From assembly GCF_014203755.1 (NCBI RefSeq), contig NZ_JACHJS010000001.1, positions 3,038,001-3,102,000 on the forward strand: 64,000 nt of DNA. The letters are read 5' to 3'. A model generated the notes under the pieces. That model had not been told where the DNA came from. It searched no databases and saw nothing but the letters and a program-made list of their open reading frames with translations. The DNA is from Saccharothrix violaceirubra (GTDB taxonomy: Bacteria; Actinomycetota; Actinomycetes; Mycobacteriales; Pseudonocardiaceae). The position numbers and the translations under genes were made by a program. Numbering within the stretch: the stretch's first letter is position 1; each line of letters opens with the position of its first letter. Shown in pieces: positions 38,494 through 55,396 of the stretch.

Positions 38494-38574
38494 TCGAATT
38501 CCCCCATAGTGCTTCGCGCGCGACCCGGTCGGAAATGTTTTCCGGGAAGCGGCACCCCAGTGTAGACCCCGATA

Positions 38575-39579: not shown

Positions 39580-39672
39580 CGACTTCTCCTCCCCCTGGTC
39601 CGGCCCGCGATCGGCGGACCGGACGCGAGTCCGACTCGGCGGGTTTTCCGGGTCGCGGATGCCCCACCGCCG

Positions 39673-39912: not shown

Positions 39913-40925
39913 CAGGACACCGCCGCGGGCGTCGTGGTGCGGAGTGAGGACTCGCCGCGTTCCCACGACGACAGGATGTTCTCGTTGGCCAGTCCGCCCA
40001 GCTCCGTCGTCGCGAGCGCGCCGAAGACGACGTCGGACAGCTCGCTCGGGTTCTCCCGCACGAACCTGCCGCACATGTCGTGGGCGGCGAGCTGTTCGTG
40101 GACGGCGTCCGCGACGATGTGCTCCTGGAAGAACAGCCAGGAGCTGTCCGAGCCGTTCAGGCGCTGGAGGCCGTTGCGGAAGTTCCGGTTCACGTGGTGC
40201 GAGCCGATCTCCGTGATCGCGAGGTTGCCGAGCAGTGCGCCCCGCCGCCGTCCGTAGGTCCCGAAATAGGAAATCAGGTTCACGGTCGCCAGCGAGTACG
40301 CGGGGACGTCCGCGAAGTACGCGCCGAATTCGGTGCGCAGGCCGAGTTCGTCCAGGGTCAACTCGAAGAGCTGGGAGTGCAGGCGTCCCGGAATGCCGCC
40401 GCCGTATTCGTCGGACTGGATTTCGACCAGTGCGGGTTTCCCGCCGCCGCGCACCCGGGGAATGGCCAGGCTGTGGTGGTCGGCCTCCATGAGGCTGTAG
40501 ACCGAACGGTGCATGAGGAACTCTTCGAACTGCCGTATGGTGGCGTCCCGCTTGATGTAGCGGGAGAGCGACCGCCCGGCGCGCGGTTTGCCGAGTTCCA
40601 TGAGGAAACCGGGGAGTTCCTCGACCTCCAGGTCGGGGAGCGGGCCGACGGCTTCGTCGAGTACGCGCTGGAAGCGCGCTTCGAGGCGTTGTCGCAGTCC
40701 GATGAGGGGAGCGTGCCACTCCCAGTGCTGCGCGGCCTCGTCGAAGAGGTAGTACTGGAGGCCGTAGCACACGAATAAGGAGTGCTGGAGATCCTCTTCG
40801 GCGATGGAATCCGCCTCGGTCGCCAGGACCTCTTTCAGGATCGATTCGTCACCGGGCTCGGGCGGGCGGCGCAGGAGGTCGACGAGGATCTCGCCCACCG
40901 GGCCGCGGTGGTCGGGTAACTGCAC
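39912..40925 (-). CDS. Haem-oxygenase-like diiron oxidase
   Basis: 337 residues, all-helical, of the iron-containing redox enzyme family (PF14518-like). Likely iron ligands are in VEIQSDEYGGG (Glu168, Asp172, Glu173), TEIGSHH (Glu239) and EHIVADAVHEQ (His269, Asp273, His276). Related HDOs include UndA, BesC, SznF and CADD, which perform O2-dependent C-C cleavage, desaturation or N-oxygenation on small amine or acid substrates. Start GTG 40925 after GGGGAG. It heads the operon with CDGSH, SbnA-like and LysE genes. Substrate unknown; the SbnA product is the obvious candidate. Confidence 0.83.
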   Translation of the reverse strand: MQLPDHRGPVGEILVDLLRRPPEPGDESILKEVLATEADSIAEEDLQHSLFVCYGLQYYLFDEAAQHWEWHAPLIGLRQRLEARFQRVLDEAVGPLPDLEVEELPGFLMELGKPRAGRSLSRYIKRDATIRQFEEFLMHRSVYSLMEADHHSLAIPRVRGGGKPALVEIQSDEYGGGIPGRLHSQLFELTLDELGLRTEFGAYFADVPAYSLATVNLISYFGTYGRRRGALLGNLAITEIGSHHVNRNFRNGLQRLNGSDSSWLFFQEHIVADAVHEQLAAHDMCGRFVRENPSELSDVVFGALATTELGGLANENILSSWERGESSLRTTTPAAVS

Positions 40926-41140: not shown

Positions 41141-42712
41141 TCAGCGCAGGGGTCCGGTGAGGTAGGACACCCGGCTCAGGAATTCGCCCCGGTCGAGCGC
41201 CGCGGCGACCCGTTCGACGTCGTCGCCCAGCGACCGGTCGTGCTCGACGGCGGGCGACAGCGAGCGGATCAGGTCGTGGGTCGCCCGGCCCGCCGGACCC
41301 AGCCGCCCGTGCCGGCCGGCCAGGTCCACCGCCTGTGCCGCCGCGAGCGCCTCGACGGCCAGGATGCGGTTGTTGTTGCCCAGCACGCGGCGGGCGTTGC
41401 GCACGGAGATCAACCCCATGCTCACCACGTCCTGGTTGTCGCCGTTGGCGGGGATGCTCTGGGTGCTCGCCGGGCCGATGGTCCGGTTCTCGGCCACCAG
41501 CGCCGTGGCCGGGTACTGGGCACCGGCGAATCCACTGTGGAGTCCGGGCTGTCCGGCGACGAGGAACTCGGGCAGGCCGTCGCTGAGGTGCCGGTTGAGC
41601 AGCCGGTTCGTCCGGCGCTCGGACAGCACGCCGAGCTGGGTGAGCGCGATGGTCGTGTAGTCCAGGGCGAAGGCGACCGGCTGGCCGTGGAAGTTGGCGC
41701 CGTGGAAGACCTCCTCGTCCGCGAAGAACAGCGGGTTGTCGTTGGCCGAGTTCAACTCGGTGGCCAGGGTGCGCTCCGCGTACGCGAGGGTGTCCCGGAC
41801 CGCGCCCAGCACCTGGGGGATCGCGCGCAGGGAGTACGCCTTCTGCAGGTAGACCGGGGTCCCGCCGCGCTGCCGGTGGGCGGCCGTCCGCAGGTCCGCG
41901 TGGGAGACCAACGCCGCGCTGCCCTCGGTGAGGGCACGGATGTTGACCGCCGAGTCGATCTGCCCGGCGTGCGGCTTGGCCAGTTCGTGGCCCTGCGCGA
42001 CGAACGGACCGGCCGACGCCGCCAGGGCCTCCAGCACCAGCGCGGCGACGATCTCCGCCTGTCGCACCTGGTCCAGCGCGCGGCACACGACCAGGGAGCC
42101 GACGCCGGTCATCGCCGACGTGCCGTTGATCAGGGCCAGACCTTCCTTGTACCGCAGGCGTAACGGCTCGATGCCGTGCTCCCGCAGGACTTCCGCGGTG
42201 GCCACGCGCCGGCCGTCGCGCAGCACGTACCCCTCGCCGATCACCGTGCACGCGAGGTGCGACAACGGCGTGAGGTCGCCGCTGGCGCCCAGCGATCCGA
42301 TCTCCGGGATCGCCGGGGTGATCCCCTCGTCGAGGTAGCGCGCCAGCCGCAGCACGAGTTCCGGGCGCACCGCCGAGTAGCCCCGGGCCAGCGCGTTGAG
42401 CCGGGCGCCCAGGATCGCCCGGGACTCGGCGCGGTCGAACAGCGGTCCGACCCCGGTGCTGTGGCTGCGGATCAGGTTGGTCTGCAGTTCCGTCTCGTGC
42501 GCGGCGTCCACCGCGTGGTAGACCATCTCGCCGTAGCCGGTGGTGACGCCGTAGACGGGCACGTCGTCCTGCGCGAGCTTCTCGAGCTGGACCCGGCTCG
42601 CGGCGACGCGCGTGAGCGCGTCCGGGTCGACCTCGCAGCGCGCGTCGTCCTCGGCGATCGCGCGCAGGTCGGCCGGCCGCAGGGTGCGGCCGTCGATGCG
42701 GACGGTGGTCAC
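41141..42712 (-). CDS. MIO-type tyrosine 2,3-aminomutase (SgcC4-like)
   Basis: 523 residues of the aromatic amino acid ammonia-lyase/aminomutase family. The MIO cofactor forms from Ala143-Ser144-Gly145 in GSLGASGDLTPLSH. YGVTTGYGEMVY (Tyr54, Glu62) and RSHSTG (His84) correspond, with a constant offset of 9, to Tyr63, Glu71 and His93 of the C-1027 enzyme SgcC4 as I remember it. FHGANFHGQPVAFALDY and SIPANGDNQDVVSMG are also close. Lyases usually have TGFG in place of TGYGE. Expected reaction: L-tyrosine to beta-tyrosine; beta-phenylalanine formation or lyase activity remain possible. GTG overlaps the MFS stop by 4 bases. Confidence 0.88.
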   Translation of the reverse strand: MTTVRIDGRTLRPADLRAIAEDDARCEVDPDALTRVAASRVQLEKLAQDDVPVYGVTTGYGEMVYHAVDAAHETELQTNLIRSHSTGVGPLFDRAESRAILGARLNALARGYSAVRPELVLRLARYLDEGITPAIPEIGSLGASGDLTPLSHLACTVIGEGYVLRDGRRVATAEVLREHGIEPLRLRYKEGLALINGTSAMTGVGSLVVCRALDQVRQAEIVAALVLEALAASAGPFVAQGHELAKPHAGQIDSAVNIRALTEGSAALVSHADLRTAAHRQRGGTPVYLQKAYSLRAIPQVLGAVRDTLAYAERTLATELNSANDNPLFFADEEVFHGANFHGQPVAFALDYTTIALTQLGVLSERRTNRLLNRHLSDGLPEFLVAGQPGLHSGFAGAQYPATALVAENRTIGPASTQSIPANGDNQDVVSMGLISVRNARRVLGNNNRILAVEALAAAQAVDLAGRHGRLGPAGRATHDLIRSLSPAVEHDRSLGDDVERVAAALDRGEFLSRVSYLTGPLR

Positions 42713-44193
42713 AGGACCTCCACGGCGGCGGGCTTCAGGGTGACGTCGCGCCGGCGCAACATCCGGCCGAGCAGCCCGCTCAGCACGGCCGTGGCCAGCG
42801 CCAGCAGGCAGAGCAGCACGCAGGTGATCGTGAACGCGGCGGCGAAGTCGGCTGCCGGGACCGAATCCCCGGTCCGCTGGGGGTTGGCGCCCAGCACCGC
42901 CCGGTACACCGTGCCGACGACGGCCACGCCGAGCGCCATCGCCGCCTGGGTCACGGTGTTGAGCACGCCGGACCCCGCGCCCGCCATCTCGTCGGGCACC
43001 TGCGCCATGACGATGGCGATCAGCGGCGACACCACCAGCCCCTGGCCGATCCCGGACAGGCCGATCGCCGCGCCCAGGGCCAGGGACTGGACGCCCGCGT
43101 CCGCGTGCACGATGAACGGGATCGGCACGAAGCTGATCGCCATCAGCAGCGCGCCCGCGATCAGCACCCGGGCGCCGTGCCGTTCGGCGAGCCGGCGACC
43201 GGCCACCGACGCGAGCGCGAAACCCGCGCCGAGCGGTACGAACACCAGGCCGGTGTCCAGTGGTCCCAGTGCGAGGCCCGACTGGAGGTGGTAGGTCAGC
43301 ACCAGGAAGTAACCCGCGTTGCCGCTGAAGAACACGGTCACCGCGGCCATGCTGGTCGGGAAGCCGGGCCGGCGCAGGATCCCGGGCGGCAGCAACGGAT
43401 CGCCGCCGCGCGCGGCCAGCCTCGTCTCGTAGCGGAACAGCCCGGCGGTCAGCAGCGCCGCGACCGGGAACCACGGCCAGATCCACGGCGGCCACCCGTG
43501 CTCGGGCCCCAGCGACAGCGGGATCAGCAGCACGGGCAACGCCGTCGCGGTCAGCACGGTGCCCACCACGTCCAGCGGTGCCGCGGCCGGACCGCGACTC
43601 TCCCGCACGGTCGGCGCGGCGACCAGGATGGCCACGCCGATCGGCACGTTGATCAGGAAGATCGTCCGCCACTCCAGGCCCGCGACGTCCAGTTGCAGCA
43701 GCAGGCCGCCACCGATGAGGCCGACGATGACGCCCAGGCCGATCACCGCCCCGTAGGCGCCGACCGCGCGCCGGCGGTCCCGCGCGTCCGGGAAGGTGGT
43801 CTGGATGATCGACAGCACCTGCGGCATCAGCACGGCCGCCGCCGCGCCCTGGAGGACGCGGGCCCCGATCAGCAGCGGCGCCGTCGGGCACAGCGCGCAC
43901 AGCAGCGAGGTCACGGTGAACGCGGCGACGCCGTACAGGAAGACCTTCCGGCGGCCGATCCGGTCGCCGAGCTTGCCGCCGGCGACCATGCCCGCCGCGT
44001 AGGCGATCACGTAGCCCTCGATGACGAACTGCATCTGGCCGAAGGTCGCGTCCAGGTCCGCCTGGATCGGCGGGCTCGCCACGTTCACGATGAACATGTC
44101 GATCTGGCCCATGAACGCGGCGAGCAGGACGACGCCGATGCCGAACCAGGTGCGGCCGGTCGGCCGGGGTGGGGCATCCATCGGTGCGCTCAT
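42709..44193 (-). CDS. MFS drug:H+ antiporter (DHA2, 14-helix type)
   Basis: 494 residues with about fourteen membrane helices. Helix 1 segment FMGQIDMFIVNVASPPIQAD is typical of DHA2 exporters, GKLGDRIGRRKVFLYG is motif A, and GARVLQGAAAAVLMPQVLS is motif B/C. Likely exports the final product and gives self-resistance. ATG at 44193 follows GGGAGGGGAG. It sits between the SDR and aminomutase genes in one transcription unit. Confidence 0.9.
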   Translation of the reverse strand: MSAPMDAPPRPTGRTWFGIGVVLLAAFMGQIDMFIVNVASPPIQADLDATFGQMQFVIEGYVIAYAAGMVAGGKLGDRIGRRKVFLYGVAAFTVTSLLCALCPTAPLLIGARVLQGAAAAVLMPQVLSIIQTTFPDARDRRRAVGAYGAVIGLGVIVGLIGGGLLLQLDVAGLEWRTIFLINVPIGVAILVAAPTVRESRGPAAAPLDVVGTVLTATALPVLLIPLSLGPEHGWPPWIWPWFPVAALLTAGLFRYETRLAARGGDPLLPPGILRRPGFPTSMAAVTVFFSGNAGYFLVLTYHLQSGLALGPLDTGLVFVPLGAGFALASVAGRRLAERHGARVLIAGALLMAISFVPIPFIVHADAGVQSLALGAAIGLSGIGQGLVVSPLIAIVMAQVPDEMAGAGSGVLNTVTQAAMALGVAVVGTVYRAVLGANPQRTGDSVPAADFAAAFTITCVLLCLLALATAVLSGLLGRMLRRRDVTLKPAAVEVL

Positions 44194-44212
44194 CGGTGTT
44201 CGGCTCCCCTCC

Positions 44213-44938
44213 CTATCGGCTGCGGTAGGCGCCGCCGTTGACGTTGACCACCTGCCCGGTGACGTGCCGCGCACCGGGTGACGCGAGGAAGAACACGGCC
44301 TCCGCGATGTCGTCCGGCGTGCCCGCCCGCCCGGTGAGCGTCGAGGCGACGAGGTGGTCCACGCGCTCGTCGGTGAGCTTGTCGCGGAAGAACTCGGTGT
44401 CCCTGATGTAGCCGGGGGAGACCACGTTCGTCGTGATCCCGCGTGGACCCAGGTGCTTGGCCAGGTCCACGTTCCACGCGGCGAGCGCGGCCTTGGCGGC
44501 ACCGTAGGACCCGGCGCCCTGGTCGGCGGCGATCGATCCGATGTGGACGACCGCGCCGCCCGCGACCAGTCGGTGGTCGACCGCGTGCGTGGTCAGCACC
44601 GCGCTGATCAGGTTGGCCTCCAGGTTGGCCCGCCACCGCCGGGCGAGTGCCGCGAGCCCCTCGTCGGCGGGCAGGTCGAAGTCGGTGTTGCCGCCGGCGT
44701 TGTTGACCAGCACGTCGACCGTGTCCGGCAACTCGGCCACGGCCGCGGCCAGCCCCTCGGGGTCCGTGCCGTCGCAGGGCAGGGCGTGCGCGTTCCCGCC
44801 GAGCGCGCTCACCGCGTCCCGCAGGATTTCCTTGCGACGACCGGTGATGTAGACCCGGTCGCCCTCGGCGACGAAGCGCGCGGCCACCGCGCGACCGATG
44901 CCCGTACCGCCACCGGTGACCAGAACCGTTCGAGCCAT
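44213..44938 (-). CDS. Short-chain dehydrogenase/reductase
   Basis: 241 residues, classical SDR. NAD(P) loop TGGGTGIGRAVAARFVAEG at the N terminus with TGRRKE after strand 2 (Arg-rich, favouring NADPH), NNAGG near residue 90, then Ser in GSIAADQGAG and the YxxxK pair in SYGAAKAALAAW. C-terminal SPGARHVTGQVVNVNGG closes the fold. Reduces or oxidises a carbonyl/alcohol in the pathway. First gene of the SDR-MFS-aminomutase unit, with the MarR-type operator 22 bases before its ATG. Confidence 0.9.
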   Translation of the reverse strand: MARTVLVTGGGTGIGRAVAARFVAEGDRVYITGRRKEILRDAVSALGGNAHALPCDGTDPEGLAAAVAELPDTVDVLVNNAGGNTDFDLPADEGLAALARRWRANLEANLISAVLTTHAVDHRLVAGGAVVHIGSIAADQGAGSYGAAKAALAAWNVDLAKHLGPRGITTNVVSPGYIRDTEFFRDKLTDERVDHLVASTLTGRAGTPDDIAEAVFFLASPGARHVTGQVVNVNGGAYRSR

Positions 44939-44959
44939 CCTCGTTCCCTTCACGTATAG

Positions 44960-44971
44960 TTTAGGTCTAAA
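44960..44971. promoter_or_regulatory. Cluster operator copy 1 (TTTAG-GT-CTAAA)
   Basis: Perfect 5-2-5 palindrome TTTAGGTCTAAA between the divergent SDR and MarR genes, in an A+T-rich patch that should hold both promoters. The same half-sites recur at 53316. Confidence 0.7.
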
Positions 44972-45020
44972 TCGTAGAGACGGCCAGTGTGAACGTGGCA
45001 ACCGGTGGCAAGGGTGTGAG

Positions 45021-45611
45021 ATGAAGGTAACAGCTACGTCGGTCGGCGATCAGGGTCGCGGGAGCGACCGGGACGCGGCGGACGAGATCGCGGCGGCCTG
45101 GCAGCGGGAGCGGCCGGGCACGCCGACCGAGTCGATCGGCGTCGTCACCAGACTGTGGCGGCTGGCCAAGGTGTTCGGCGAGGACCGGCGCCGGGTGCTC
45201 GCCGCCTCGGGGGTCGACTCGGCCACCCTGGACCTGCTCAGCGTGCTCCGGCGCAGTTCCCCTCCCTACTCGCTGACGACCCGCGAACTGACCCGGCTCA
45301 CCCTGGTCACCGCCGGGGCGATCTCCCAGCGGGTGGCGCGGGCCGAACGCGACGGGCTGGTGCGGCGCTGGTCGGACCCCGGCGACCGCAGCGTGTGGGT
45401 CCAGTTGACCCCGGACGGCCACGCCCTGGTCGAGAGCACCGTCGACCGGGTGCTCAACCGGGAACTCGAGCTGCTCGCCGGGCTCGACGCCGACCAGCGC
45501 GACCGGCTCGCCGACCTGCTCCGCCTGCTGCTGCGCGACGTGCAGGAGCGGCTCGGCGACCACGGCATCTCCCACGTGGGCGACGCCGACGGCATCGGGT
45601 CGGCGCTGTGA
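45021..45611 (+). CDS. MarR family regulator of the biosynthetic region
   Basis: 196 residues. A 35-residue polar lead, then a MarR fold: GVVTRLWRLAKVFGEDRRRV, LRRSSPPYSLTTRELTRLTL, recognition helix VTAGAISQRVARAERDG and the wing RWSDPGDRSVWVQLTPDGH. It is divergent from the SDR gene, with the TTTAG-NN-CTAAA palindrome between them, and a second copy of that palindrome lies before the ligase operon and asnB. It is therefore the best candidate for a cluster-wide repressor. ATG at 45021 preferred; the frame extends upstream through the operator and cannot all be coding. Confidence 0.88.
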   Translation: MKVTATSVGDQGRGSDRDAADEIAAAWQRERPGTPTESIGVVTRLWRLAKVFGEDRRRVLAASGVDSATLDLLSVLRRSSPPYSLTTRELTRLTLVTAGAISQRVARAERDGLVRRWSDPGDRSVWVQLTPDGHALVESTVDRVLNRELELLAGLDADQRDRLADLLRLLLRDVQERLGDHGISHVGDADGIGSAL

Positions 45612-45685
45612 TCGGCGCTGTGATCCCCGAACGGTGATCGCCGGGTGGTGATCGCCGGGAGGTGATCACAGCGCCGTGATCACCG
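45603..45685. terminator. Repeat-rich bidirectional terminator
   Basis: GGCGCTGTGATC occurs twice in tandem (45603-45614, 45615-45626), GGTGATCGCCGGG twice (45634 and 45648), and the region ends in a hairpin GGTGATCAC / GTGATCACC (45662-45685, loop AGCGCC). The hairpin could also pair with the tandem copies. It lies between the convergent MarR and DAHP synthase genes. Confidence 0.6.
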
Positions 45686-45693
45686 GGTCCCGG

Positions 45694-46902
45694 TCAACCG
45701 TCGCACAGCAGTTCGGCGACGTGCCGCACGACCTGCTCGGCCTGCTCGCCGTTGAGCCGGGGGTCGCACGCGGACTCGAACCGGTCCGGCTCGGCGCCCG
45801 ACGCCAGGTCCGCGCGCGTCGCCAGGCACTCCGACACCGGGTCCGGCGTCGCCTCCAGGTGGACGCCGCCCGGGTGGCACCCGTGCCGTCGCAGCACCGC
45901 GCAGAAGCGTTCGACCTCGCGCAGCACGTCCGACACCACCCGGGTCTTGCGACCGGCGTTGGTGCGGACGGTGTTGCCGTGCATGGGATCCGACAGCCAC
46001 ACGACGTCGCGCGCCGACTCGCCCAGCGCGGTCACCAGGTGGGGGAGTCGGTCCGCGATCGCGTCGACGCCCATCCGCACGATCAAGCAGAGCCGCCCGG
46101 GACGCCGGCCCGCCGCGAGCCGGTCCACGATCGCGACCACGTCCTCGGGCCGCGCGGTGGGGCCGATCTTGACGCCGACCGGGTTGCCGATCGCCGCCGC
46201 GAACGCCAGGTGCGCGTGGTCGAGCTGACGGGTCCGCTCGCCGATCCACACCATGTGCGCCGAGGACGCGTACTCGCCGCCCCGGACCGGGTCGGGCCGT
46301 ACGAGGGCACGTTCGAAATCGAGCAGCAGCGCTTCGTGGCTGATGTAGGTCGGTGCCAGCATCGCGCTGAGCCCGCTGTTGCCCGGCAACAGGAGTTGCC
46401 GCATGAACAACGCGTTCAGCCCGCTCGCGGCGTGGTCGTACGCGGCCAGCAGCCGCAGCGGGTCGGCACGCCGGGCCGACGCCGTCGGTGCGAGGTCGTT
46501 CACCGCGTCGCCGCGGTAGACCGGCAGCGCGGTGCCGTCCGGCAGGGTCTCGGTGTCGCTGGAGCGGGGCTTGCCGTACTGGCCCGCGAACCGTCCGATC
46601 CGGACGGTGGGCAGCCCGACCGCCTCGACGATCTCGCAGAGTCCGTGCACCTGCGCGGCCTTGGCCTGGATGCGGGCCCGCGACGAGTCGGCGAACAGCT
46701 CGGCGCACTCGCCGACCTGCACGACGAACGACTCGCCCCGGGCCACGAACTCCAGTTCCGCCGCGAGCGCGTGGCACGACTCGGCGTCGACCAACGGCGG
46801 GCGGCGGCGTAACTCGTCGACGACGGCGTCGAGTCGTTCCCTGGTGGACCATTGGGGCTGCTGTGCGGCTTCGACGGCAAGCGATTCCCGGAGAACGCCC
46901 AC
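45694..46902 (-). CDS. 3-deoxy-7-phosphoheptulonate synthase, class II
   Basis: 402 residues, plant-like class II DAHP synthase, unrelated in sequence to the class I enzyme at 16974. Motifs: FVVQVGECAELF, GRFAGQYGKPRSSDTE, HMVWIGERTRQLDHAH, GVKIGPTARPEDVV, LSDPMHGNT and VHLEATPDPVSEC. Cys in GECAELF and the His/Glu/Asp of the later motifs are metal ligands in this family. PhzC-type enzymes of this class are common in secondary-metabolite clusters. GTG at 46902 follows GAGGGGGAA. Last gene of the seven-gene operon; it should feed the shikimate pathway and hence tyrosine. Confidence 0.93.
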   Translation of the reverse strand: MGVLRESLAVEAAQQPQWSTRERLDAVVDELRRRPPLVDAESCHALAAELEFVARGESFVVQVGECAELFADSSRARIQAKAAQVHGLCEIVEAVGLPTVRIGRFAGQYGKPRSSDTETLPDGTALPVYRGDAVNDLAPTASARRADPLRLLAAYDHAASGLNALFMRQLLLPGNSGLSAMLAPTYISHEALLLDFERALVRPDPVRGGEYASSAHMVWIGERTRQLDHAHLAFAAAIGNPVGVKIGPTARPEDVVAIVDRLAAGRRPGRLCLIVRMGVDAIADRLPHLVTALGESARDVVWLSDPMHGNTVRTNAGRKTRVVSDVLREVERFCAVLRRHGCHPGGVHLEATPDPVSECLATRADLASGAEPDRFESACDPRLNGEQAEQVVRHVAELLCDG

Positions 46903-46949
46903 GATTTCCCCCTCGTGTTCGGTCGTTGGTCGAGGTCTTGCGGTTCGGG

Positions 46950-48383: not shown

Positions 48384-49456
48384 CGGGCGGGGACCTCCGC
48401 CCTCCGGTCGTGCCCGGTCGGCGTCACCGCCTGGGCGTACAGCGCGGCCACCGCGATCTTCCCGGTCGCCGTCCGCGGGATCAGCGGCACCCGGTGCACC
48501 GCGCGCGGCGGGGTGAAGTCGGCCACGGCGGCGCCCAGCCGGTCGAGGACCTGCCGCGGATCCGGATCCGGCCCGGTGGCGCTGTAGAACAGCTCGTAGT
48601 GCTCGGCCCGCACCGGATCCCGCACCGGCAGGCACGCCACGTCCAGCCCCGGGACGAGCGTCCGCAGCGTCGTGGACAGCTCCTCCAGGTTGCAGCGCCG
48701 ACCGTTCACCTTGATCAGTGCGGAGGCCCGGCCGTCGAACTCGAACGACCGCGGACCGACGCGGCGCACCAGGTCCGGCAGCCGCCAGGAGGTCGGCCGT
48801 GCGGCCATGTCGGCGCGGCGGGCCAGCCGGGGGCCGCGGATGTGCAGCCACTGGTCGGCTTCGTCGGTGGCGTCGACGAACTCCACGTCGGGCAGCAACG
48901 TCCACGGTGCCGGTCGGGTGCCCCGGCCGACGATCCGGCGCTGGGCGATCCCGCCGGTCTCGGTCGACCCGAACAGCTCCACCGCGCGGAAGCCGGTGTC
49001 CGCGAGCGCGTCCACCACCTGCGCGGTGGCCGGCACGGTCGGACCGGTGCCGTGCAACGCCACCACCGCGGGCAGTTCCGCGACCTGGCGGAGCATGTGC
49101 CGCAGCACCAGCCAACTCGACGGCAGGCAGACGAACAGCGTGCGCCGGCCCGCCACCTCCGGGGGCAGCCCGACCGGGTCGTGGCCGACGTGCACCACGG
49201 GGATGTCCAGTCGTGCGGGCAGGATCTCGGCGAACAGCCGGCCGAACAGGTGCTCGCGCGGCGCGAAGCTGACGACCTGGTCGACGTCCCCGATCACCGC
49301 GTCGGCGATCAGGGCGGTCTCGGCGTGGAGCTGCTCCTCGGTGCGCAGCCACACCGCCGGGGTGCCGGTGTGGCCCGAGGTGCTGAACGGGAACTCGGCA
49401 TGGTGCGGCACGGCCGCTCCGGACGACCTGTCGTCGACCGGCACGAGGCGGGTCAT
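48380..49456 (-). CDS. Acyl-adenylate ligase, short ANL protein
   Basis: 358 residues, shorter than normal ANL enzymes (about 500). P-loop FSTSGHTGTPAVW at 24-36, VELFGSTETGGIAQR as motif A5, GRASALIKVNGRRCNLEEL as A8, and TGK with Lys333 as the C-terminal catalytic Lys. The N-terminal subdomain is reduced, like loading ligases that act with a discrete carrier protein. It follows the ACP gene with a 4-base overlap, so it probably adenylates an acid and loads it on that ACP. The substrate may be the beta-amino acid or an aryl acid. Confidence 0.85.
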   Translation of the reverse strand: MTRLVPVDDRSSGAAVPHHAEFPFSTSGHTGTPAVWLRTEEQLHAETALIADAVIGDVDQVVSFAPREHLFGRLFAEILPARLDIPVVHVGHDPVGLPPEVAGRRTLFVCLPSSWLVLRHMLRQVAELPAVVALHGTGPTVPATAQVVDALADTGFRAVELFGSTETGGIAQRRIVGRGTRPAPWTLLPDVEFVDATDEADQWLHIRGPRLARRADMAARPTSWRLPDLVRRVGPRSFEFDGRASALIKVNGRRCNLEELSTTLRTLVPGLDVACLPVRDPVRAEHYELFYSATGPDPDPRQVLDRLGAAVADFTPPRAVHRVPLIPRTATGKIAVAALYAQAVTPTGHDRRAEVPAR

Positions 49457-49752
49457 CGCGCCGTCCCGAAGACCTCGAGGTCCTCCAACCGGTCCCGGAC
49501 GAAACCGGCCATGTTGTCGACGCGGGAGAAGGCGTGCCGCACGTCGTGGGCGACGAAGTCGATCTCGATGCCGAATTCCTGCTCCACGGCCGTGATGCAC
49601 TCCAGGGCGCCCAGGCTGTCGTACCGGTCGCCGAGCGCGTCGGACAGCACGGCGTCGTCCGCCACCGCGTCGAACTCGGGCCCGAACCGCCCGCCGAGCA
49701 GGGTCCTGATCCGGGCCAGGACGTCGTCGGTGGAAACCTTCGAAACCGTCAT
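49453..49752 (-). CDS. Discrete acyl carrier protein
   Basis: 99 residues. Four-helix carrier fold with the phosphopantetheine site Ser46 in GDRYDSLGALECITAVEQEF (DSL motif). The acidic helix 2 (ECITAVEQEFGIEIDF) is ACP-like. ATG at 49752 follows GAAGAGGA; an in-frame upstream ATG (49782) would overlap the tautomerase gene and lacks a ribosome site. It should hold the activated acyl or aminoacyl group while the tailoring enzymes act. It is the only carrier protein in the window. Confidence 0.9.
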   Translation of the reverse strand: MTVSKVSTDDVLARIRTLLGGRFGPEFDAVADDAVLSDALGDRYDSLGALECITAVEQEFGIEIDFVAHDVRHAFSRVDNMAGFVRDRLEDLEVFGTAR

Positions 49753-49771
49753 CAGATCCTCTTCCCTGGTG

Positions 49772-50161
49772 TCAGGTGGCATCGGCGCGACGCAGCTTCC
49801 CGGCCGCGCCGTAGTGCACTTGGTCCAGCGGTGTCGGTCGGAACTCGACGTACAGGAACGGCGTACCGGCGGTCAGTCCGAGCGCGTCGCCGATCTCGGC
49901 TGCCAGTGCCGCGCGGTACGCCTCGTCGCGGTCGGGTGCCACGCAGCAGGTGACGGCCGCGTGGCGCAGGCCGTCGTCGTAAGGCAGGGCTTCGACCGGC
50001 ATCCCGCCGATGTAGACGGTGCCCTCCTCGGTCGACTCGAAGCGCACGACGACGTGCCCGCGTTCGCTGCCGTGCGTGGAAAGCCAGCGCGTGAGCCGGA
50101 CGGCGACCGCCCGACGTCGGGCGGTGCTCAGCTTCGTCGTGGTGATCGTGATCGTGGGCAT
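49772..50161 (-). CDS. Tautomerase-superfamily protein
   Basis: 129 residues beginning MPTITITTTKL: after Met removal the N-terminal Pro is the general base of the tautomerase superfamily (4-oxalocrotonate tautomerase, MIF, cis-CaaD). Two beta-alpha-beta units are visible (residues 2-60 and 62-125), about twice the 4-OT monomer. Expected chemistry is keto-enol isomerisation or hydration/dehalogenation-like steps next to a carbonyl. Gap of 19 bases from each neighbour in the operon. Confidence 0.8.
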   Translation of the reverse strand: MPTITITTTKLSTARRRAVAVRLTRWLSTHGSERGHVVVRFESTEEGTVYIGGMPVEALPYDDGLRHAAVTCCVAPDRDEAYRAALAAEIGDALGLTAGTPFLYVEFRPTPLDQVHYGAAGKLRRADAT

Positions 50162-50180
50162 GCGCCCGTCCCCTCGAAGG

Positions 50181-51929
50181 TCAGGACAGCGTCAGCGCCG
50201 GCAGGTCCGTCGGCCCGCCCGCCGCGCGTCGCCGCAGGAGCCGGGCGAGGCAGTCGGCCAGCGGTCCGCCGCCGACTGGCGCGAGCGGGGTCCACGCGGT
50301 TCCCGTCGGGGTGCGGACGCGGTCCAGGAACGTGGCCAGGTGTCCGGTGTCGACCTCGACGTCGAAGCGGTCGGCGGTCGCCACCGCCTCGTAACCGCTG
50401 AGCAGGTCCGGCATGCGGGCGCCCTCGTTGGCGAACCCGCCGCCGGCGACGCGGTGCCGGTCGAGCAGCGTGACCACGTCCCGTCGCACGCCCCGGCCGA
50501 GGCCGTCCAGCACCCGCTGCGCCTGCAAACCCGCCCGCAGCGTGGGTGTCGATCCCGGCACGTGCCCGAAACCGGCACTGTCCACTGTGCTCCGACAGGC
50601 CTCGACGAAACCGACCAGGCGTCGGGTGTCCAGCGCCCGCGCCACCGGGATGTCCAGCAGGCGGAGGATTTCCACCGCGGCCGAGGTGGACACCAGGTCT
50701 GAGGCGCGACCCTCCCAGTACCCGAAGCCGCCGTCGGTGTTCTGGAGCGTCCGGAGCCAGTCCGCGATCTCCCCGCGTGCCGCGGGATCGTCCGCGCACG
50801 CACCGGCGGCCAGCGCCCAGAGCGTGCACCGCACCTCGCTGCCCCGGGCGGGCATGTACATCACGCCGCCCTCGTTGGGCAGTCGGCAGCCCGCGAGCCA
50901 CTGCCGCCAGGGAGCACGGCGCGGGTCGTCGGGCTCCGCGCCCAGCACAGCGGCGGCGGTGCTCAACGCGTCACCGGCGTGTTCGGGTTCGCGGTAGGTG
51001 AAGCCGCCGTCGGGGCAGGCCAGTTCCCGTACCCGGGCGACGACCGGATCGGCGTGGACACCGGTGTCGGCGCCCAGCGCCCGCAGCGAACCGACCGCGC
51101 AGAACGAGGCCCACACGTCGGCCACGTCGTACCCGGCCCACCGGACGAAGGCGCCGTCGGCCGTGCGGCGATCCTCGATCCACCGCAGGCAGCCGGCGCG
51201 GTCGCGCGGACCGGCGCCCAACGCGTCGAGCGCGGCGGTCGCCCGGTAGGTCGCCCACATGCACGGTGTCCGCGCGTCGGCGCCGAAGCGGAAGCCGCCG
51301 TCGGGGCCCTGCTGGTCCCGGAGCCACCAGAGGAGGGCCGGGACGTCCCATGGGGGAGCCAGATCCGGTTCGGCGGTCCGCAACGCGCGCCAGGCCATCA
51401 CGCCGTAGAAGCAGGCGCGGACGTCGGACCGGCCGTACCGGGCGTGCTCGGGCGACCAGCCCAGCCCGCCGTCGGGTGTCTGGAGGAGGCGCAGCCAGTC
51501 CAGGAGGCGTCGCCGGTCCGGCACGTCGGCGCGGCACAGCTCGACCACGGTGCGCACGGAGAAGTGCGTCGCCCAGACGTCGGCGGCCTGGCCGGGCATC
51601 ATCGCGTACGCGTCGCCGGTCCACGTGCCGCGCAACCACCTGGCGGTGCGTTCCAGGCGCGGCACGTCGGCGCCGAGGTCGGCCAATGCCTGCGCGCAGT
51701 AGAAGGTGGCCCACGCGTCGGAGGCCATGCCCTTGCTCCAGGCGTAGCCGCCGTCCGCGTTCTGCTTGCCGGCGAGGAAGGCCGCGGTCTCGGCGACGCC
51801 CGGGGCGTCGCCGACGCGGCCCAGCCACGCCAGGGTCCGGGTCGCGGCGTAGGTGCACCACAGGTCGGCTTCGCCGCCGGAGACGGCGAGCCCGCCGGGT
51901 GCGCGCGGGGTGGTGTCGACGGCGGTCAT
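50181..51929 (-). CDS. Squalene-cyclase-like (alpha/alpha) toroid protein
   Basis: 582 residues made of about nine to eleven prenyltransferase/squalene-oxidase repeats: GGYAW..ASDAWATFYCAQAL, GGLGWSPEHARYGRSD, GGFRFGADARTPCMWATYRA, GAFVRWAGYDVADVWASFCA, GGFTYREPEHAGDALSTAAA, GGFGYWEGRASDLVSTSA and GGFANEGARMPD. The DxDD acid of squalene-hopene cyclases and the D..C..H zinc site of protein prenyltransferases were not found. No signal peptide or membrane helix. ATG overlaps the upstream ligase stop by 4 bases. Its role in an operon without terpene genes is unexplained: a cyclase of another type, or a scaffold. Confidence 0.82.
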   Translation of the reverse strand: MTAVDTTPRAPGGLAVSGGEADLWCTYAATRTLAWLGRVGDAPGVAETAAFLAGKQNADGGYAWSKGMASDAWATFYCAQALADLGADVPRLERTARWLRGTWTGDAYAMMPGQAADVWATHFSVRTVVELCRADVPDRRRLLDWLRLLQTPDGGLGWSPEHARYGRSDVRACFYGVMAWRALRTAEPDLAPPWDVPALLWWLRDQQGPDGGFRFGADARTPCMWATYRATAALDALGAGPRDRAGCLRWIEDRRTADGAFVRWAGYDVADVWASFCAVGSLRALGADTGVHADPVVARVRELACPDGGFTYREPEHAGDALSTAAAVLGAEPDDPRRAPWRQWLAGCRLPNEGGVMYMPARGSEVRCTLWALAAGACADDPAARGEIADWLRTLQNTDGGFGYWEGRASDLVSTSAAVEILRLLDIPVARALDTRRLVGFVEACRSTVDSAGFGHVPGSTPTLRAGLQAQRVLDGLGRGVRRDVVTLLDRHRVAGGGFANEGARMPDLLSGYEAVATADRFDVEVDTGHLATFLDRVRTPTGTAWTPLAPVGGGPLADCLARLLRRRAAGGPTDLPALTLS

Positions 51930-53239
51930 CGGACCGACTCCACCACCCGGAAGTTGGACCGCTTCCAGCTCTTCTGCGACGCACCGCTCTTGGTGGTGGC
52001 CGGGAGCTGGTTGACGAAGAGCACCTCGTCCCATTGCAGCCCGAGCAGGTCACGGGAGGCGTCCTGGAGCTGTCCGGCCATGCCCCGCTCGCCGGACCGG
52101 TCCCACCGCACGTCGCGTTCCAGGATCAGCCGGGCGAAGTCGCCGGTGGTGTCGGTCTCCATCAGGTACCCGGTCGCCTCGGTGGCGCCGTAGACGACCT
52201 CCTCGACGCCGCGGACGGTCAACGTGGCACCGCGCACCCGCAGCGCGTCCGAGCTGCGGCCCGAGACCCGGATCACCGGGGACCCGTCGCCGCACCCGCA
52301 CTCGCCGCCCACCTCGACCTCGTCGCCGGTGTCCAGTCGCAGCAGCACCCTGGCGTGCAGGTTGAGCGGCGTGACGACGAGGCGGCCGGAGCCCGACGCG
52401 GGGAGCGGCACCACGCCGTCGTCGGTCGCGAGTTCGAAGTAGTTGGTCGTGGTGAGCAGGTGCAGCCGGTCACGGGCGCAACTCGCGGCCAGCGTGCCGG
52501 TCTCCGTGCTGCCGTAGCTCGCGTCGAACGCCCGGGCGCCCCACCAGTGGCCGAGGCGGCGGCGGAACGGCGCCGTGCTCACCTCGCCGAGCAGCATCAG
52601 CCGGTCCACCGAAGCGCCGAGTTCGTCGAGGAGGCCGCGCTGTTTGAGCAATCTGCTGAATTGCAGCGCGACGCCCGGTGCGACGAAGACCGTGGTCGGC
52701 CGCAGGGTTCGCCAGAGGCCGATCACCCGGTCCCAGTCCGAGATGCCGGTGGCGAACGGATAGGCCCGCGTGTGCGGGAACCCGAGGTATTCGACGACTC
52801 CCACGATGAGATCCGCGACCGGCACGATGTCCGATGGCATCATGACCAGTACACGTTCATCCGGGGTGAACAGACCACGCCAGGCTTCGGCCACGGACGT
52901 GGTGTTCCAAATGATGTCCTCGGCCAGTCGGGGTGTGGGTGTCGGACTTCCGGTCGTGCCGGTGGTCTCGTAGTACTTCACCGCTTCACCGATGGCCGCG
53001 GCGAGGAATGCGCCGGGGTCGGACTTGAGTCGGTCCTTGCCGGTGGCCGGTAGCCGGGCGAAATTCTCGGGCGAGAATTCACCTAACCGGCGGTATGCGT
53101 CGGTGTTCCGGGCGCGTGCCCAGACGGATTGGAGTTTCTGCTGGTAGAAGCTGTGCGAACTGGTCGCCCTGTGGCCGGCGCGGATCTCGGCGCGGGCCAG
53201 TTGCAACGTGTGCAGGCGATCCAGGCTATTGATCAGCAA
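51926..53239 (-). CDS. PaaK-like phenylacetate-CoA ligase homologue
   Basis: 437 residues, ANL enzyme of the phenylacetate-CoA ligase type. P-loop YETTGTTGSPTPTPR at 90-104, ASYGSTETGTLAASC as A5, LLRLDTGDEVEVGGECGCGD with the Cys pair usual in PaaK, and a C-terminal KSGASQKSWKRS with the catalytic Lys. Such ligases activate aryl or amino acids in many clusters. TTG at 53239, 7 bases after GGGGAG, starts the seven-gene operon; the palindrome at 53316 lies 77 bases upstream. It is the second adenylating enzyme here, so two different acids may be activated. Confidence 0.88.
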   Translation of the reverse strand: MLINSLDRLHTLQLARAEIRAGHRATSSHSFYQQKLQSVWARARNTDAYRRLGEFSPENFARLPATGKDRLKSDPGAFLAAAIGEAVKYYETTGTTGSPTPTPRLAEDIIWNTTSVAEAWRGLFTPDERVLVMMPSDIVPVADLIVGVVEYLGFPHTRAYPFATGISDWDRVIGLWRTLRPTTVFVAPGVALQFSRLLKQRGLLDELGASVDRLMLLGEVSTAPFRRRLGHWWGARAFDASYGSTETGTLAASCARDRLHLLTTTNYFELATDDGVVPLPASGSGRLVVTPLNLHARVLLRLDTGDEVEVGGECGCGDGSPVIRVSGRSSDALRVRGATLTVRGVEEVVYGATEATGYLMETDTTGDFARLILERDVRWDRSGERGMAGQLQDASRDLLGLQWDEVLFVNQLPATTKSGASQKSWKRSNFRVVESVR

Positions 53240-53566
53240 TCGAATTCTCCCCGCGAGACGTGGGCAGACCGCAGTCCCCTCGAATTACTGCATCCACGCT
53301 GTCCAATGTGGTCAATTTAGCACTAAACAAGCAACATTGCAACCGCGTTGCCGGGAACGTGGGATGTTGGGGCGACCACAGTCATGTTCACCCGAAAGGC
53401 GGTGTGGTGCCCGCCGTGGGCCGGGCCACGCTGACGATCAGCGGGTGATGTGCCGGCACCCCGCCGTGAACGTCGAAAATCGCTCTGCCTCGTCCCCGAG
53501 CGGGTACGACGCAGTCCCGAACCGGACAATTGGGTTACGGTTCACGACCACGTTAAGGGTTTGCCC
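53240..53566. other. Divergent control region of ligase operon and asnB
   Basis: 327 bases with no gene. It contains the operator-like palindrome at 53316-53327, and on the minus strand a TTGACC hexamer (53307-53312) just downstream of it that could be a -35 element for the ligase operon. The last 40 bases before asnB are A+T-richer (GGGTTACGG..CGTTAAGGG). Confidence 0.5.
53316..53327. promoter_or_regulatory. Cluster operator copy 2 (TTTAG-CA-CTAAA)
   Basis: Perfect half-sites TTTAG and CTAAA with a 2-base centre, the same form as 44960-44971, located between the divergent ligase operon and asnB. Probably bound by the MarR protein encoded at 45021. Confidence 0.7.
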
Positions 53567-55396
53567 ATGTGCGGTATTGCCGGGTGGGTCGACTTCGGTC
53601 GGCCACGTGTTTCGCAGCGTGCCGAGTTGGAACGGATGACCACCACGCTGGCACCTCGGGGACCGGACGCGGCCGGGTTCTGGCTCGACCGGCACGTCGG
53701 ACTCGGACACCGCCGGTTGGCGATCATCGACGTGCGGCGGGGCACCCAGCCGATGATCGCCGGACCGGAGTCCGGTCCGCACGCCGTGCTCTCCTACAGC
53801 GGCGAGGTCTACAACTTCCAGGAGCTACGGGCCGAACTGGTCCGGCGCGGCCACGTCTTCCGCACCCGCAGCGACACCGAGGTGGTGCTGGAGGCGTACC
53901 TGGAGTGGGGCACGGACTTCGTGCGACGCCTCGACGGCATGTTCGCGTTCGCGCTGTGGGACGCCCGGGAGCAGCGGCTGCTGCTGGTACGGGACCGGCT
54001 GGGCATCAAGCCGCTCTACTACGCCCCGTTGGGCTCGGGCGTCCTGTTCGGGTCCGAACCCAAGGCCGTGCTCGCCCATCCCGAGTTCACCGCGGAACTC
54101 GACGACGAGGGCCTCGCGGACCTGCTGGCGCTGAGCGGGACGCCCGGTCGCACCCCGTTGCGCGGCTTGGCGGAACTGCCGCCGGGGCACGTCCTGACCG
54201 TGGACCGGCGGGGGACCCGGACGCACCGCTACTGGGGACTGGAGAGCCGGCCGCACGAGGACGACATCCCCACCACCGTCCGCACGGTACGGGAACTGCT
54301 CGAGGACATCGTCCGGCGGCAACTGGTCACCGACGTCCCCCTCTGCACGCTGCTGTCCGGCGGCCTGGACTCCAGCGCCCTGACCGCCATCGCCGCGGCC
54401 ATCCTCGGCGGGCGCGGCGAGGGCCCGGTGCGGTCGTTCTCCGTCGACTTCGTCGGCAGCCAGGAGGACTTCCGCGGCAGCGAGTTCCGGCCCGACCGGG
54501 ACAACCCGTACGCCACGATGGTCGCGGAGCACATCGGGACCGAGCACCGGACCATCGAACTGCCCGCCGAGGCGCTGACGACCGACGGGGCACGGCGGGC
54601 GGTGCTCGACGCCCACGACCTGCCACTGACCTTCGGCGACGTCGACACGTCGTTGCACCGGCTCTTCACCCGCATCCGGGACCACTCCACCGTGGCGTTG
54701 TCCGGCGAGTCGGCGGACGAGGTGTTCGGCGGCTACGTCTGGTTCCACGACCCGAAGGTCGTCGCCACCGAGGACTTCCCGTGGCTGAGCCGGATGCGGT
54801 TCGTCCCCGAGGACATGCTCGACCGGGACTTCCGCGAGCGGACCCGGTTCGCGCAACTGCGCGCCGACGCCTACCGGCAGGCCGTCGCCGAGGTGGACCA
54901 CCTGCCGGGCGACGACCACCACGAGCGGCGCATGCGCGAGATCGGCCACCTGCACCTGACCCGGTGGCTGCCGGTGCTGCTCGACCGCAAGGATCGCCTG
55001 AGCATGGCCGCCGGCCTGGAGGTGCGCGTGCCGTTCTGCGACCACCGTCTGATCGAGTACGTCCACAACATCCCGTGGAAGATCAAGGCCTACGACGGCC
55101 GGGAGAAGAGCGTCCTGCGTGGCGCCGTCGCCGACCTGCTCCCGCCGGCCGTGCTCGACCGCAGGAAGAGTCCTTACCCCACCACCGGGGACCAGCGGTA
55201 CGAGCGCGATCTGCGCGCGCGGACCGCGAAGTTGCTCCAGGACGACCGTTCACCCGCCTTGGACTTCGTCGACGCCGGACGGTTGCGGGAGTTGCTGGAC
55301 CGGCCGTTCGGTCACTTCGACTCCCAGCTCAGCCGCAACCCGATGGAGACCGCCCTGATGCTGGACGACTGGCTGCGCACCTACGGCCTGGCGTAG
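53567..55396 (+). CDS. asnB: Glutamine-dependent asparagine synthetase
   Basis: 609 residues. N-terminal class II glutaminase domain begins MCGIAGWVDFG, so Cys2 becomes the nucleophile after Met removal; RGPDAAGFW, LGHRRLAIID and SYSGEVYNF are its other motifs. The synthetase domain has the ATP loop LLSGGLDSSAL (SGGLDS at 264-269), LSGESADEVFGGY and RVPFCDHRLIEY. Homologues in clusters amidate carboxylates other than aspartate. Presence of Cys2 argues against a beta-lactam synthetase. Start fixed by Met-Cys; AAGGG lies 7 bases upstream. Divergent from the ligase operon and sharing its control region. Confidence 0.93.
   Translation: MCGIAGWVDFGRPRVSQRAELERMTTTLAPRGPDAAGFWLDRHVGLGHRRLAIIDVRRGTQPMIAGPESGPHAVLSYSGEVYNFQELRAELVRRGHVFRTRSDTEVVLEAYLEWGTDFVRRLDGMFAFALWDAREQRLLLVRDRLGIKPLYYAPLGSGVLFGSEPKAVLAHPEFTAELDDEGLADLLALSGTPGRTPLRGLAELPPGHVLTVDRRGTRTHRYWGLESRPHEDDIPTTVRTVRELLEDIVRRQLVTDVPLCTLLSGGLDSSALTAIAAAILGGRGEGPVRSFSVDFVGSQEDFRGSEFRPDRDNPYATMVAEHIGTEHRTIELPAEALTTDGARRAVLDAHDLPLTFGDVDTSLHRLFTRIRDHSTVALSGESADEVFGGYVWFHDPKVVATEDFPWLSRMRFVPEDMLDRDFRERTRFAQLRADAYRQAVAEVDHLPGDDHHERRMREIGHLHLTRWLPVLLDRKDRLSMAAGLEVRVPFCDHRLIEYVHNIPWKIKAYDGREKSVLRGAVADLLPPAVLDRRKSPYPTTGDQRYERDLRARTAKLLQDDRSPALDFVDAGRLRELLDRPFGHFDSQLSRNPMETALMLDDWLRTYGLA

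Follow-up and report, generated by a model that had tools for sequence, protein, structure and literature searches.

A recurrent five-gene core with a toroid protein and a free-standing carrier protein marks a proposed family of non-modular biosynthetic pathways

What does a tyrosine aminomutase of the SgcC4 type do in a gene cluster that has two adenylating enzymes and one discrete acyl carrier protein (ACP)? A 64,000-nucleotide stretch of the Saccharothrix violaceirubra genome (contig NZ_JACHJS010000001.1, positions 3,038,001 to 3,102,000; the window) raises this question. A preliminary description had placed a beta-amino-acid pathway at 41141-55396 of the window, and every gene that it named was found there by our gene calls, made with our own codon-usage script, and by Pfam and NCBIfam profiles. 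Its reading of the gene set as non-modular is also supported, as no ketosynthase, condensation or thioesterase family was matched among the cluster genes (Pfam at 1e-3; NCBIfam for all but the MFS gene and g42). The cluster is, however, larger than described: it extends leftward to 37870 and includes a missed module of haem-oxygenase-like diiron oxidase (HDO), SbnA-like and LysE genes, which are 70-79% identical to genes adjoining the same cluster in Amycolatopsis. Its left edge is probably at 37559, the end of g42, which matches no Pfam family above cut-off. Taken jointly with the pathway proposed below, the reading of about 17 genes over about 37.56-55.40 kb as one MarR-controlled cluster stands at even confidence. 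Two starts were reset after inspection of the sequence by eye, that of the SDR gene to 44938 and that of AsnB to 53567; from the latter AsnB reads MCGIAGW, so its glutaminase Cys2 is intact. The features are as follows.

37559..37843, minus strand: g42, small protein, probable cluster edge; its C-terminus resembles the ORF that follows LysE in L135 (judged by eye only)
37870..38493, minus strand: g43, LysE-type amino-acid exporter; PF01810, 70% identity to an Amycolatopsis decaplanina cluster gene
38575..39597 (start approximate), minus strand: g44, SbnA-like PLP enzyme; PF00291, 76% identity to an Amycolatopsis gene
39673..39912, minus strand: g45, CDGSH iron-sulphur protein; PF09360, flanked by the conserved genes for the PLP enzyme and HDO
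39912..40925, minus strand: g46, HDO; PF14518, 79% identity to an Amycolatopsis gene
41141..42712, minus strand: g47, predicted tyrosine 2,3-aminomutase (TAM; MIO enzyme, SgcC4 type); TIGR03832, PDB tyrosine aminomutase chains
42709..44193, minus strand: g48, MFS exporter; PF07690
44213..44938, minus strand: g49, SDR oxidoreductase; PF13561, start corrected from the sequence
44960..44971, unstranded: operator copy 1, TTTAGGTCTAAA, between the SDR and MarR genes
45021..45611, plus strand: g50, MarR regulator; PF12802
45694..46902, minus strand: g51, short class II DAHP synthase; PF01474
46950..48383, minus strand: g52, amidase-signature enzyme; PF01425
48380..49456, minus strand: g53, short ANL adenylating enzyme, distantly 4-coumarate-ligase-like; TIGR02372 below cut-off, ANL motifs conserved
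49453..49752, minus strand: g54, discrete ACP; ACP models below cut-off, DSL serine
49772..50161, minus strand: g55, N-terminal-proline tautomerase-like protein; PF14832 below cut-off, Pro2
50181..51929, minus strand: g56, alpha/alpha-toroid protein that lacks the DxDD motif of terpene cyclases; PF00432
51926..53239, minus strand: g57, PaaK-like adenylating enzyme; best PDB relatives 6siw and 6wuq, motifs conserved
53316..53327, unstranded: operator copy 2, TTTAGCACTAAA, between the PaaK and AsnB genes
53567..55396, plus strand: g58, AsnB-type glutamine-dependent amidotransferase; TIGR01536, Cys2

The operator that the genes apparently share was confirmed by counting. Exact copies of TTTAGNNCTAAA lie at 44960-44971 and 53316-53327, the cluster's two divergent promoters, with no third copy in the 7,354,386 bases of the 7.35-Mb genome, where about 0.008 would be expected from the window's dinucleotides and where the reversed sequence gave 0 matches; with one mismatch allowed the same two sites are still the only ones in the window (0 in 100 shuffles). 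All five Amycolatopsis-type loci (L020, L021, L022, L030 and L066, the first three with cluster proteins 83-93% identical to those of L066) carry the operator at the corresponding positions, and it adjoins the MarR gene in relatives. The MarR protein g50 is likely to bind it, and would keep both divergent promoters repressed as long as no effector is bound. We also considered whether the aminomutase operon and the ligase operon could be two unrelated neighbours, as might be suggested by most core loci having no TAM and by Saccharopolyspora, in which AsnB adjoins TAM at its other end. The two promoters share an operator that the rest of the genome lacks, and the window and all five Amycolatopsis-type loci have a common TAM-to-AsnB gene order, which makes this extremely improbable.

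Our main discovery concerns five of these genes. The PaaK ligase, toroid, tautomerase, ACP and short ANL enzyme are adjacent in the window, in this order and on one strand, and we propose that they form the core of a gene family. Relatives were scored at >=50 bits with profiles built from the same loci and run on six-frame ORFs. A gene was counted as present if it fell in the fetched stretch, which reaches some 10 kb to each side of the toroid; one scored as missing may lie further off or beyond the contig. All five genes are found in 52 of the 54 other loci, which come from Actinomycetota and Pseudomonadota. This strongly confirms the co-occurrence of toroid, tautomerase and ACP across genomes, for which the preliminary description had proposed a search. 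Strand and order are unchanged in 51 of these 52 loci; the exception is L020, which has the same order by gene calls. Dropped from these counts were L023, L024, L025, L026 and L027 (judged by length to be the same contigs as L031, L038, L071, L081 and L053), the remote L029, L078 with a toroid outside any core, and L068, L070, L079 and L084, which are cut by contig ends. No description of a pathway with this gene set appeared in the titles and abstract openings of the literature matches listed, in keeping with the earlier impression that none had been described.

Conservation within the core extends to single residues: Ser46 of the ACP (the DSL serine) is kept in 54/54, Pro2 of the tautomerase in 55/55, Lys417 of PaaK in 56/58 and Lys333 of the ANL enzyme in 46/53, with 3 gaps. 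The tautomerase g55 scores 21.3 bits on PF14832 (Tautomerase_3), under the gathering score of 25.7, and neither the ANL enzyme nor the ACP matches a Pfam family at 1e-3. The best model hit of g53 is 4-coumarate ligase TIGR02372 at 65 bits, far under the cut-off of 334.7; adenylation regions of NRPS models are matched weakly, also below cut-off. The closest PDB relatives of g57 are 6siw, a PaaK-like ligase, and 6wuq (AjiA1).

The toroid's matches to PF00432 and SQHop_cyclase, with squalene-cyclase-like proteins and prenyltransferase beta subunits as its solved relatives, would fit a genuine terpene cyclase, or a subunit of a prenyltransferase, in a pathway to a meroterpenoid. The DxDD motif of class II terpene cyclases is nevertheless absent from g56 and seen in just 2 of the 61 family members. 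The 16 gene-call proteins g43-g58 contain no DDxxD, and no isoprenoid gene was recognised in the window cluster with Pfam or NCBIfam. We consider the meroterpenoid reading very unlikely, and for want of DxDD terpene cyclase was dropped as an annotation of the toroid. A more tentative role, which we rate somewhat short of even, is that of a new enzyme class in which a terpene-cyclase fold acts on aryl-acyl thioesters or acyl adenylates delivered by PaaK and the ACP; with the tautomerase it would form the heart of an Actinomycetota and Pseudomonadota family that couples arylpropanoids to amines (ammonia, diaminopropionate, diaminobutyrate or beta-lysine-like) without NRPS or PKS modules.

The SgcC4-like identity given to g47 is borne out: the protein scores 851.3 bits on the equivalog TIGR03832 (cut-off 501) and 727 bits against PDB tyrosine aminomutase chains, and by sequence we predict SgcC4-type tyrosine 2,3-aminomutase activity. 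Its MIO-forming Ala-Ser-Gly occurs as GASGDL, at the position of a modified residue in 2rjr, which we take to be SgcC4, and the motifs GYGEM, RSHS, LINGTS, AYSLRAIP, NFHGQP and NGDNQD are identical in 2rjr. Aminomutase and ligase operon occur together in 7/7 rows of the window's toroid clade (the window, five Amycolatopsis-type loci and Saccharopolyspora), so the joint conservation expected of them stands within this clade and fails outside it, where many core loci have no aminomutase. Across the wider family this core is accompanied by MIO enzymes nearer the BagA/FevW lyases or of a divergent HutH-like type. In 25 of the 54 other loci no MIO gene adjoins it; these include 12 Pseudomonas/Pantoea loci whose genomes carry 1-4 PF00221 genes elsewhere. 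Of the 29 MIO-positive rows two have incomplete genes, L072 with fragments and L082 with a partial one. The aminomutase is thus an add-on of one clade, replaced elsewhere by lyase-like MIO enzymes.

These patterns bear directly on the fate of beta-tyrosine. The preliminary description inferred that beta-tyrosine itself is adenylated (in our terms, by the ANL enzyme) and modified while bound to the ACP as a beta-tyrosyl thioester, much as SgcC1 and SgcC2 handle carrier-bound beta-tyrosine in C-1027 biosynthesis. A true TAM profile with a conserved active site, the presence of TAM in every row of the clade and a tree in which one branch separates the 8 cluster TAMs from 24 further proteins with the TAM profile (with support of only 69, and with L163 and L165 left out as the motif filter gave no ORF) all point this way. 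However, the ANL-ACP pair also occurs beside lyase-like MIO genes or with none nearby, and the best model of the ANL enzyme among its hits is a coumarate ligase, if weakly so. The formation of beta-tyrosine is predicted by sequence, and its place on the ACP is possible; with MIO genes missing beside the core in 25 loci and a single, distant PF00221 match in the L032 genome, a tyrosine-derived acid on the ACP is no more than a possibility for the family as a whole. We regard beta-tyrosyl-ACP as distinctly unlikely. A second reading makes the aminomutase chiefly a source of 4-coumarate, formed on the way or released, for a hydroxycinnamoyl-ACP pathway like that of relatives, with plant-associated members that have no MIO gene drawing on plant hydroxycinnamates. 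The second residue type of MIO enzyme in ten tree rows favours it, as do the four of these that were scanned (L059, L041, L028 and L026), each with the BagA/FevW tyrosine ammonia-lyase model as its top hit, and the presence of Pseudomonas, Pantoea and Rhizobium among the MIO-less loci. Yet those scores of 600-809 bits fall below the cut-off of 1000, so that lyase function is a prediction only, g47 keeps SgcC4-like residues that differ from the second type, and uptake of plant acids is an ecological guess; this reading too we find somewhat unlikely.

Judged by predicted gene function and conservation, a locus of this family combines the core with a DAHP synthase in most cases, an optional MIO enzyme, and either AsnB or a second PaaK or neither, never both. 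The window's g58 scores 505 bits on TIGR01536 (cut-off 267.1), a glutamine-dependent asparagine synthetase family with a synthetase domain, and Cys2 is kept in 28/28; beta-lactam synthetase was dropped as an alternative on both counts. AsnB was found in 26 of 55 loci, a second PaaK in 23, neither in 6 and both in 0, which suggests that the two may perform alternative amide-forming steps, although only 2-3 independent changes on the tree underlie this exclusivity and it is not significant. A DAHP synthase of class II or class I is present in 39/55 loci, with none in the fetched stretch of the remaining 16. The window's version, g51, is short (402 aa) and matches PF01474 at 421 bits and the equivalog TIGR01358 at 402 bits, under its cut-off of 614.7, and Cys66, Arg104, Lys111, His308, Glu350 and Asp380, presumably catalytic, are each kept in at least 30 of 31. 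The amidase triad Lys104, Ser172 and Ser196 is kept in 40/40, with no amidase within the fetched stretch of 16 of 54 other loci, and SDR hits, which may include unrelated SDRs, occur in 47 of 54 and are missing from 7.

Some family loci also carry genes of diamino-acid-type supply, as assigned by profile. An SbnA-like gene is present in the window and the five Amycolatopsis-type loci; g44 scores 283.7 bits on the SbnA equivalog TIGR03945, under the cut-off of 349.95, making 2,3-diaminopropionate-type supply possible. The SbnB-like, OTC-like and AKR genes of Amycolatopsis have no match in the window, and g45 has no relatives among the loci clustered (L128, L134 and L135 left out). Elsewhere, L042, L073 and L074 carry a Dab transaminase above the TIGR00709 cut-off, the Nocardia member L076 has SbnA and SbnB above cut-off, and L028, L077, L080 and L082 have KamA-like genes below it. 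Two sets of candidates were dropped by eye: an above-cut-off SbnA/SbnB pair at 5.03 Mb, beside NRPS-like genes, and two SbnA-like PLP matches to the right of the window, with neighbours unlike the cluster.

Together, these loci appear to represent a family of non-modular pathways that rely on a carrier protein; the family is scattered yet well conserved, and its members seem to build amides on one free-standing protein of this kind. In our best explanation of the window as a MarR-controlled member of this family, for which, inferred chemistry included, we see the chances as evenly balanced, the DAHP synthase would raise aromatic supply and the MIO enzyme would convert tyrosine to a hydroxyphenylpropanoid acid, which would be beta-tyrosine in the window's clade and 4-coumarate in certain relatives. 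Loading of an arylpropanoid acid onto the ACP would fall to the ANL enzyme; tautomerase, SDR and toroid would alter the bound acyl group, and PaaK would activate an aryl acid for or after this alteration. AsnB would turn the acid into an amide, the SbnA-like/HDO module would supply an amino partner, and the MFS and LysE proteins would export.

Parts of this scheme are familiar from known systems. The beta-tyrosine branch of C-1027 and related enediynes uses an aminomutase of the same family as g47, a likeness that we tested, and, as in the window cluster, a free-standing carrier protein with an adenylating enzyme; the window cluster differs in having no condensation enzyme or enediyne PKS by Pfam, in a short, coumarate-ligase-like ANL enzyme, and in adding toroid, tautomerase, AsnB and DAHP synthase. 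Bagremycin and ferroverdin biosynthesis (BagA tyrosine ammonia-lyase, BagE synthetase) shares a PaaK-type synthetase and a tyrosine-derived phenylpropanoid, with related MIO enzymes in the window's sister clusters, but the window PaaK scores 80 bits on BagE/FevW (NF041217; cut-off 800) and we know of no ACP or toroid in that pathway. The flexirubin-type lyase and ligase FlxA and FlxY likewise set MIO and acyl-activating enzymes around an aryl acid, but the window scores are below cut-off (403 of 700 bits and 55 of 520, respectively) and the window cluster has no ketosynthase. In closthioamide-like thiotemplated, NRPS-independent pathways a carrier protein and discrete ligases make amides with no modules; this likeness is by description rather than by comparison of genes, and to our knowledge the toroid/PaaK/tautomerase core does not occur there. 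Finally, the SbnA/SbnB route to 2,3-diaminopropionate is matched in the window by an SbnA-like PLP enzyme below cut-off with no SbnB-like gene, and above cut-off for both in the Nocardia member.

Many biosynthetic gene clusters have been found through their modular synthases. The core described here has none, yet it recurs in Actinomycetota and Pseudomonadota with a fixed five-gene order and swappable supply genes, and may represent a class of natural products overlooked by standard mining. It raises the questions of what a terpene-cyclase fold does beside an ACP and whether an aminomutase of the SgcC4 type supplies a pathway that has no modules, and the cluster's own MarR gene and genome-unique operator would offer a handle for switching it on.

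Codon-usage gene calls combined with Pfam and NCBIfam scans confirmed each of the genes named in the preliminary description of the cluster, in a window that spans 3,038,001-3,102,000 of a single contig of 7,354,386 bases, and the Pfam scan agreed with it that no ketosynthase, condensation or thioesterase family occurs among the cluster genes. The SgcC4-type tyrosine 2,3-aminomutase (TAM) is, at the level of sequence, the best supported of these genes, scoring 851 bits against TIGR03832 (cut-off 501) and aligning near full length with solved tyrosine aminomutase chains (727 bits), with the surrounding motifs kept. Features referred to below have these coordinates.

37870-40925, left of the aminomutase: LysE exporter, SbnA-like PLP enzyme, CDGSH protein and haem-oxygenase-like diiron oxidase
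44960-44971, SDR/MarR promoter: exact TTTAGNNCTAAA
53316-53327, PaaK/AsnB promoter: exact TTTAGNNCTAAA
53567: start of AsnB, N-terminus MCGIAGW

The proposal of a shared operator was borne out, since exact copies of TTTAGNNCTAAA stand at both divergent promoters and nowhere else in the genome, with no sites in 100 shuffles of the window and about 0.008 expected genome-wide. We infer that MarR binds this operator. Sites occur at the same two promoters in all five Amycolatopsis-type loci, and one or two are present in each of eight further loci (L023, L032, L033, L035, L044, L072, L074 and L083); the site is absent from 111 of the 128 loci compared, and L036, from Streptomyces, carries the same gene set but not the site.

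Judged from gene content and identity, the cluster is larger than was first described, and the module to the left of the aminomutase belongs to it. Its PLP enzyme, diiron oxidase and LysE exporter are 76%, 79% and 70% identical to Amycolatopsis decaplanina genes downstream of AsnB, and comparable identities (68-77%) were found for MarR, SDR, aminomutase and PaaK, the PaaK query being that of A. oliviviridis. Because these three genes lie beyond AsnB in 5/5 Amycolatopsis-type loci (L030, L066 and those of genomes G054, G205 and G085), at the opposite cluster end from the window, the module has moved, yet been kept. For the OTC-like, SbnB-like and aldo-keto reductase genes of Amycolatopsis there is no match within the window, and in Saccharopolyspora the module is absent from the fetched locus and about 20 kb on each side. 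The window also carries another small gene set of shikimate-derived type, about 16 kb away from the cluster (16974-21404, minus strand). It consists of a chorismatase of FkbO/Hyg5 type (413 bits, cut-off 325), a class I DAHP synthase, a transporter recognised by eye and a ligase whose closest model, matched below cut-off, is a p-hydroxybenzoate-AMP ligase. A DapA-like gene (by eye; 15110-15978, minus strand) is split into two ORFs, g16 and g17, possibly through a frameshift or a gene-call artefact.

A toroid profile search of genome contigs gave 55 loci, with 54 besides the window after removal of duplicate, truncated and remote rows. The core of PaaK-like ligase, toroid, tautomerase, ACP and short ANL enzyme is complete in 52 of these 54 (exceptions L028 and L071), in a single order and strand in 51 of the 52. 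Members come from Streptomyces, Amycolatopsis, Nocardia, Lentzea, Actinokineospora, Micromonospora and other actinomycetes, 12 Pseudomonas/Pantoea loci, one Hyphomicrobiales MAG and one Rhizobium. Within Pseudonocardiaceae, 15 of 297 genomes have a toroid match, 11 of them strong, counting the window's own. The family is scattered, as an even draw of 396 genomes from the phylum matched at 1e-60 only in the window's genome. Catalytic residues of the cluster enzymes are conserved across the family. Invariant Arg, Trp and Asp residues are numerous in the toroid, but the terpene-cyclase DxDD motif is missing from it.

Toroid relatives also lie on three Rhizobium rhizogenes plasmid records, and in the two inspected (pAtK84c, CP000631.1; pC5.7c, NZ_MK318969.1) the annotated neighbours are consistent with the same gene set. 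As annotated, these comprise an AMP-binding or F390-synthetase-like gene, the toroid, two small genes, another gene of ligase size, an amidase, an SDR and an ATP-grasp or biotin-carboxylase-like gene; transposase genes flank the set in pAtK84c and stand on one side of it in pC5.7c. In Amycolatopsis circi (L078) a toroid relative of 44% identity stands without the remaining core, in surroundings that by eye resemble an NRPS-type cluster. At L071 (Kutzneria sp. CA-103260), PaaK, toroid and tautomerase adjoin three identical 30-aa peptides, an NHLM-like peptidase/ABC exporter (below cut-off) and, by eye, a condensation-like protein, a carrier protein and an adenylation enzyme; a hybrid with a peptide pathway is possible.

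The co-occurrence of aminomutase, toroid, tautomerase and ACP raised by the preliminary description holds for the last three, and TAM accompanies them in few loci. A MIO profile match occurs in 29/54 loci, of three kinds by residue motifs. The TAM kind is found in the window, the five Amycolatopsis-type loci, Saccharopolyspora and Kitasatospora indigofera, and all three scanned exceed the TIGR03832 cut-off. Four scanned proteins of a BagA/FevW-lyase-like kind score 600-809 bits (cut-off 1000), and four of a divergent kind score best on HutH-like models, below cut-off. The Pseudomonas/Pantoea loci carry no MIO gene beside the core. In one Streptomyces branch the MIO gene is fragmented (L044 and L072, the latter record containing runs of N) or lost (L032), the rest of the cluster being retained; outside the cluster, the L044 genome holds one more PF00221 gene, and the L032 genome has one in total. 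On the toroid tree, clusters with TAM and AsnB form one clade (7 rows, SH-aLRT 100), and L074 makes a second change necessary for TAM. Among the TAM proteins sampled, the eight from these clusters form a weakly supported group (support 69) apart from the rest. Among the 297 Pseudonocardiaceae genomes, 29 have a TAM over cut-off, in five (G000, G046, G054, G085, G205) within the cluster, and two of these five have a second copy elsewhere. From these sequences, the aminomutase looks like a one-clade addition to a wider core.

Other genes vary as well. AsnB is present in 26/55 loci, a second PaaK-like ligase in 23, neither in 6 and both in none (Fisher p 5e-10), an exclusion for which the tree shows only 2-3 independent changes, too few for significance. 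DAHP synthase, class II or class I, occurs in 39/55 loci. Genes for amine supply differ between loci: diaminobutyrate transaminase is found in L042, L073 and L074, and in L024/L038 a diaminobutyrate-transaminase-like domain is apparently fused with the second PaaK ligase (847 aa); SbnA and SbnB occur in L076, and KamA-like genes, below cut-off, in L028, L077, L080 and L082.

The core and its optional supply genes point to a probable pathway of aryl-acid activation, ACP attachment and amide formation. An aryl acid would be activated, the short ANL enzyme would load it onto the ACP, the tautomerase, SDR and toroid would then modify the bound unit, and amide formation would be the final step. The presence of DAHP synthase and MIO enzymes suggests that many members take this acid from tyrosine. 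For the clade of the window it would be beta-tyrosine or coumarate, and either may be the one that reaches the ACP. AsnB, given its MCGIAGW start, should hydrolyse glutamine, and this intact glutaminase suggests a primary carboxamide product. AsnB and the second PaaK exclude each other, which suggests that loci with the second PaaK use it to attach a different amine. The earlier interpretation is half right: the non-modular gene set with TAM is supported, and beta-tyrosine on the ACP is a possibility.

A search of open-access literature, with subscription papers and preprints outside its scope, gave no description of this gene set among the matches listed; the enzymes individually belong to known families, and their combination is new to us. 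The cluster first noticed is real, and its scope should be widened to a larger cluster within a wider family: what was found undescribed is the five-gene core, in which the toroid is the real question.
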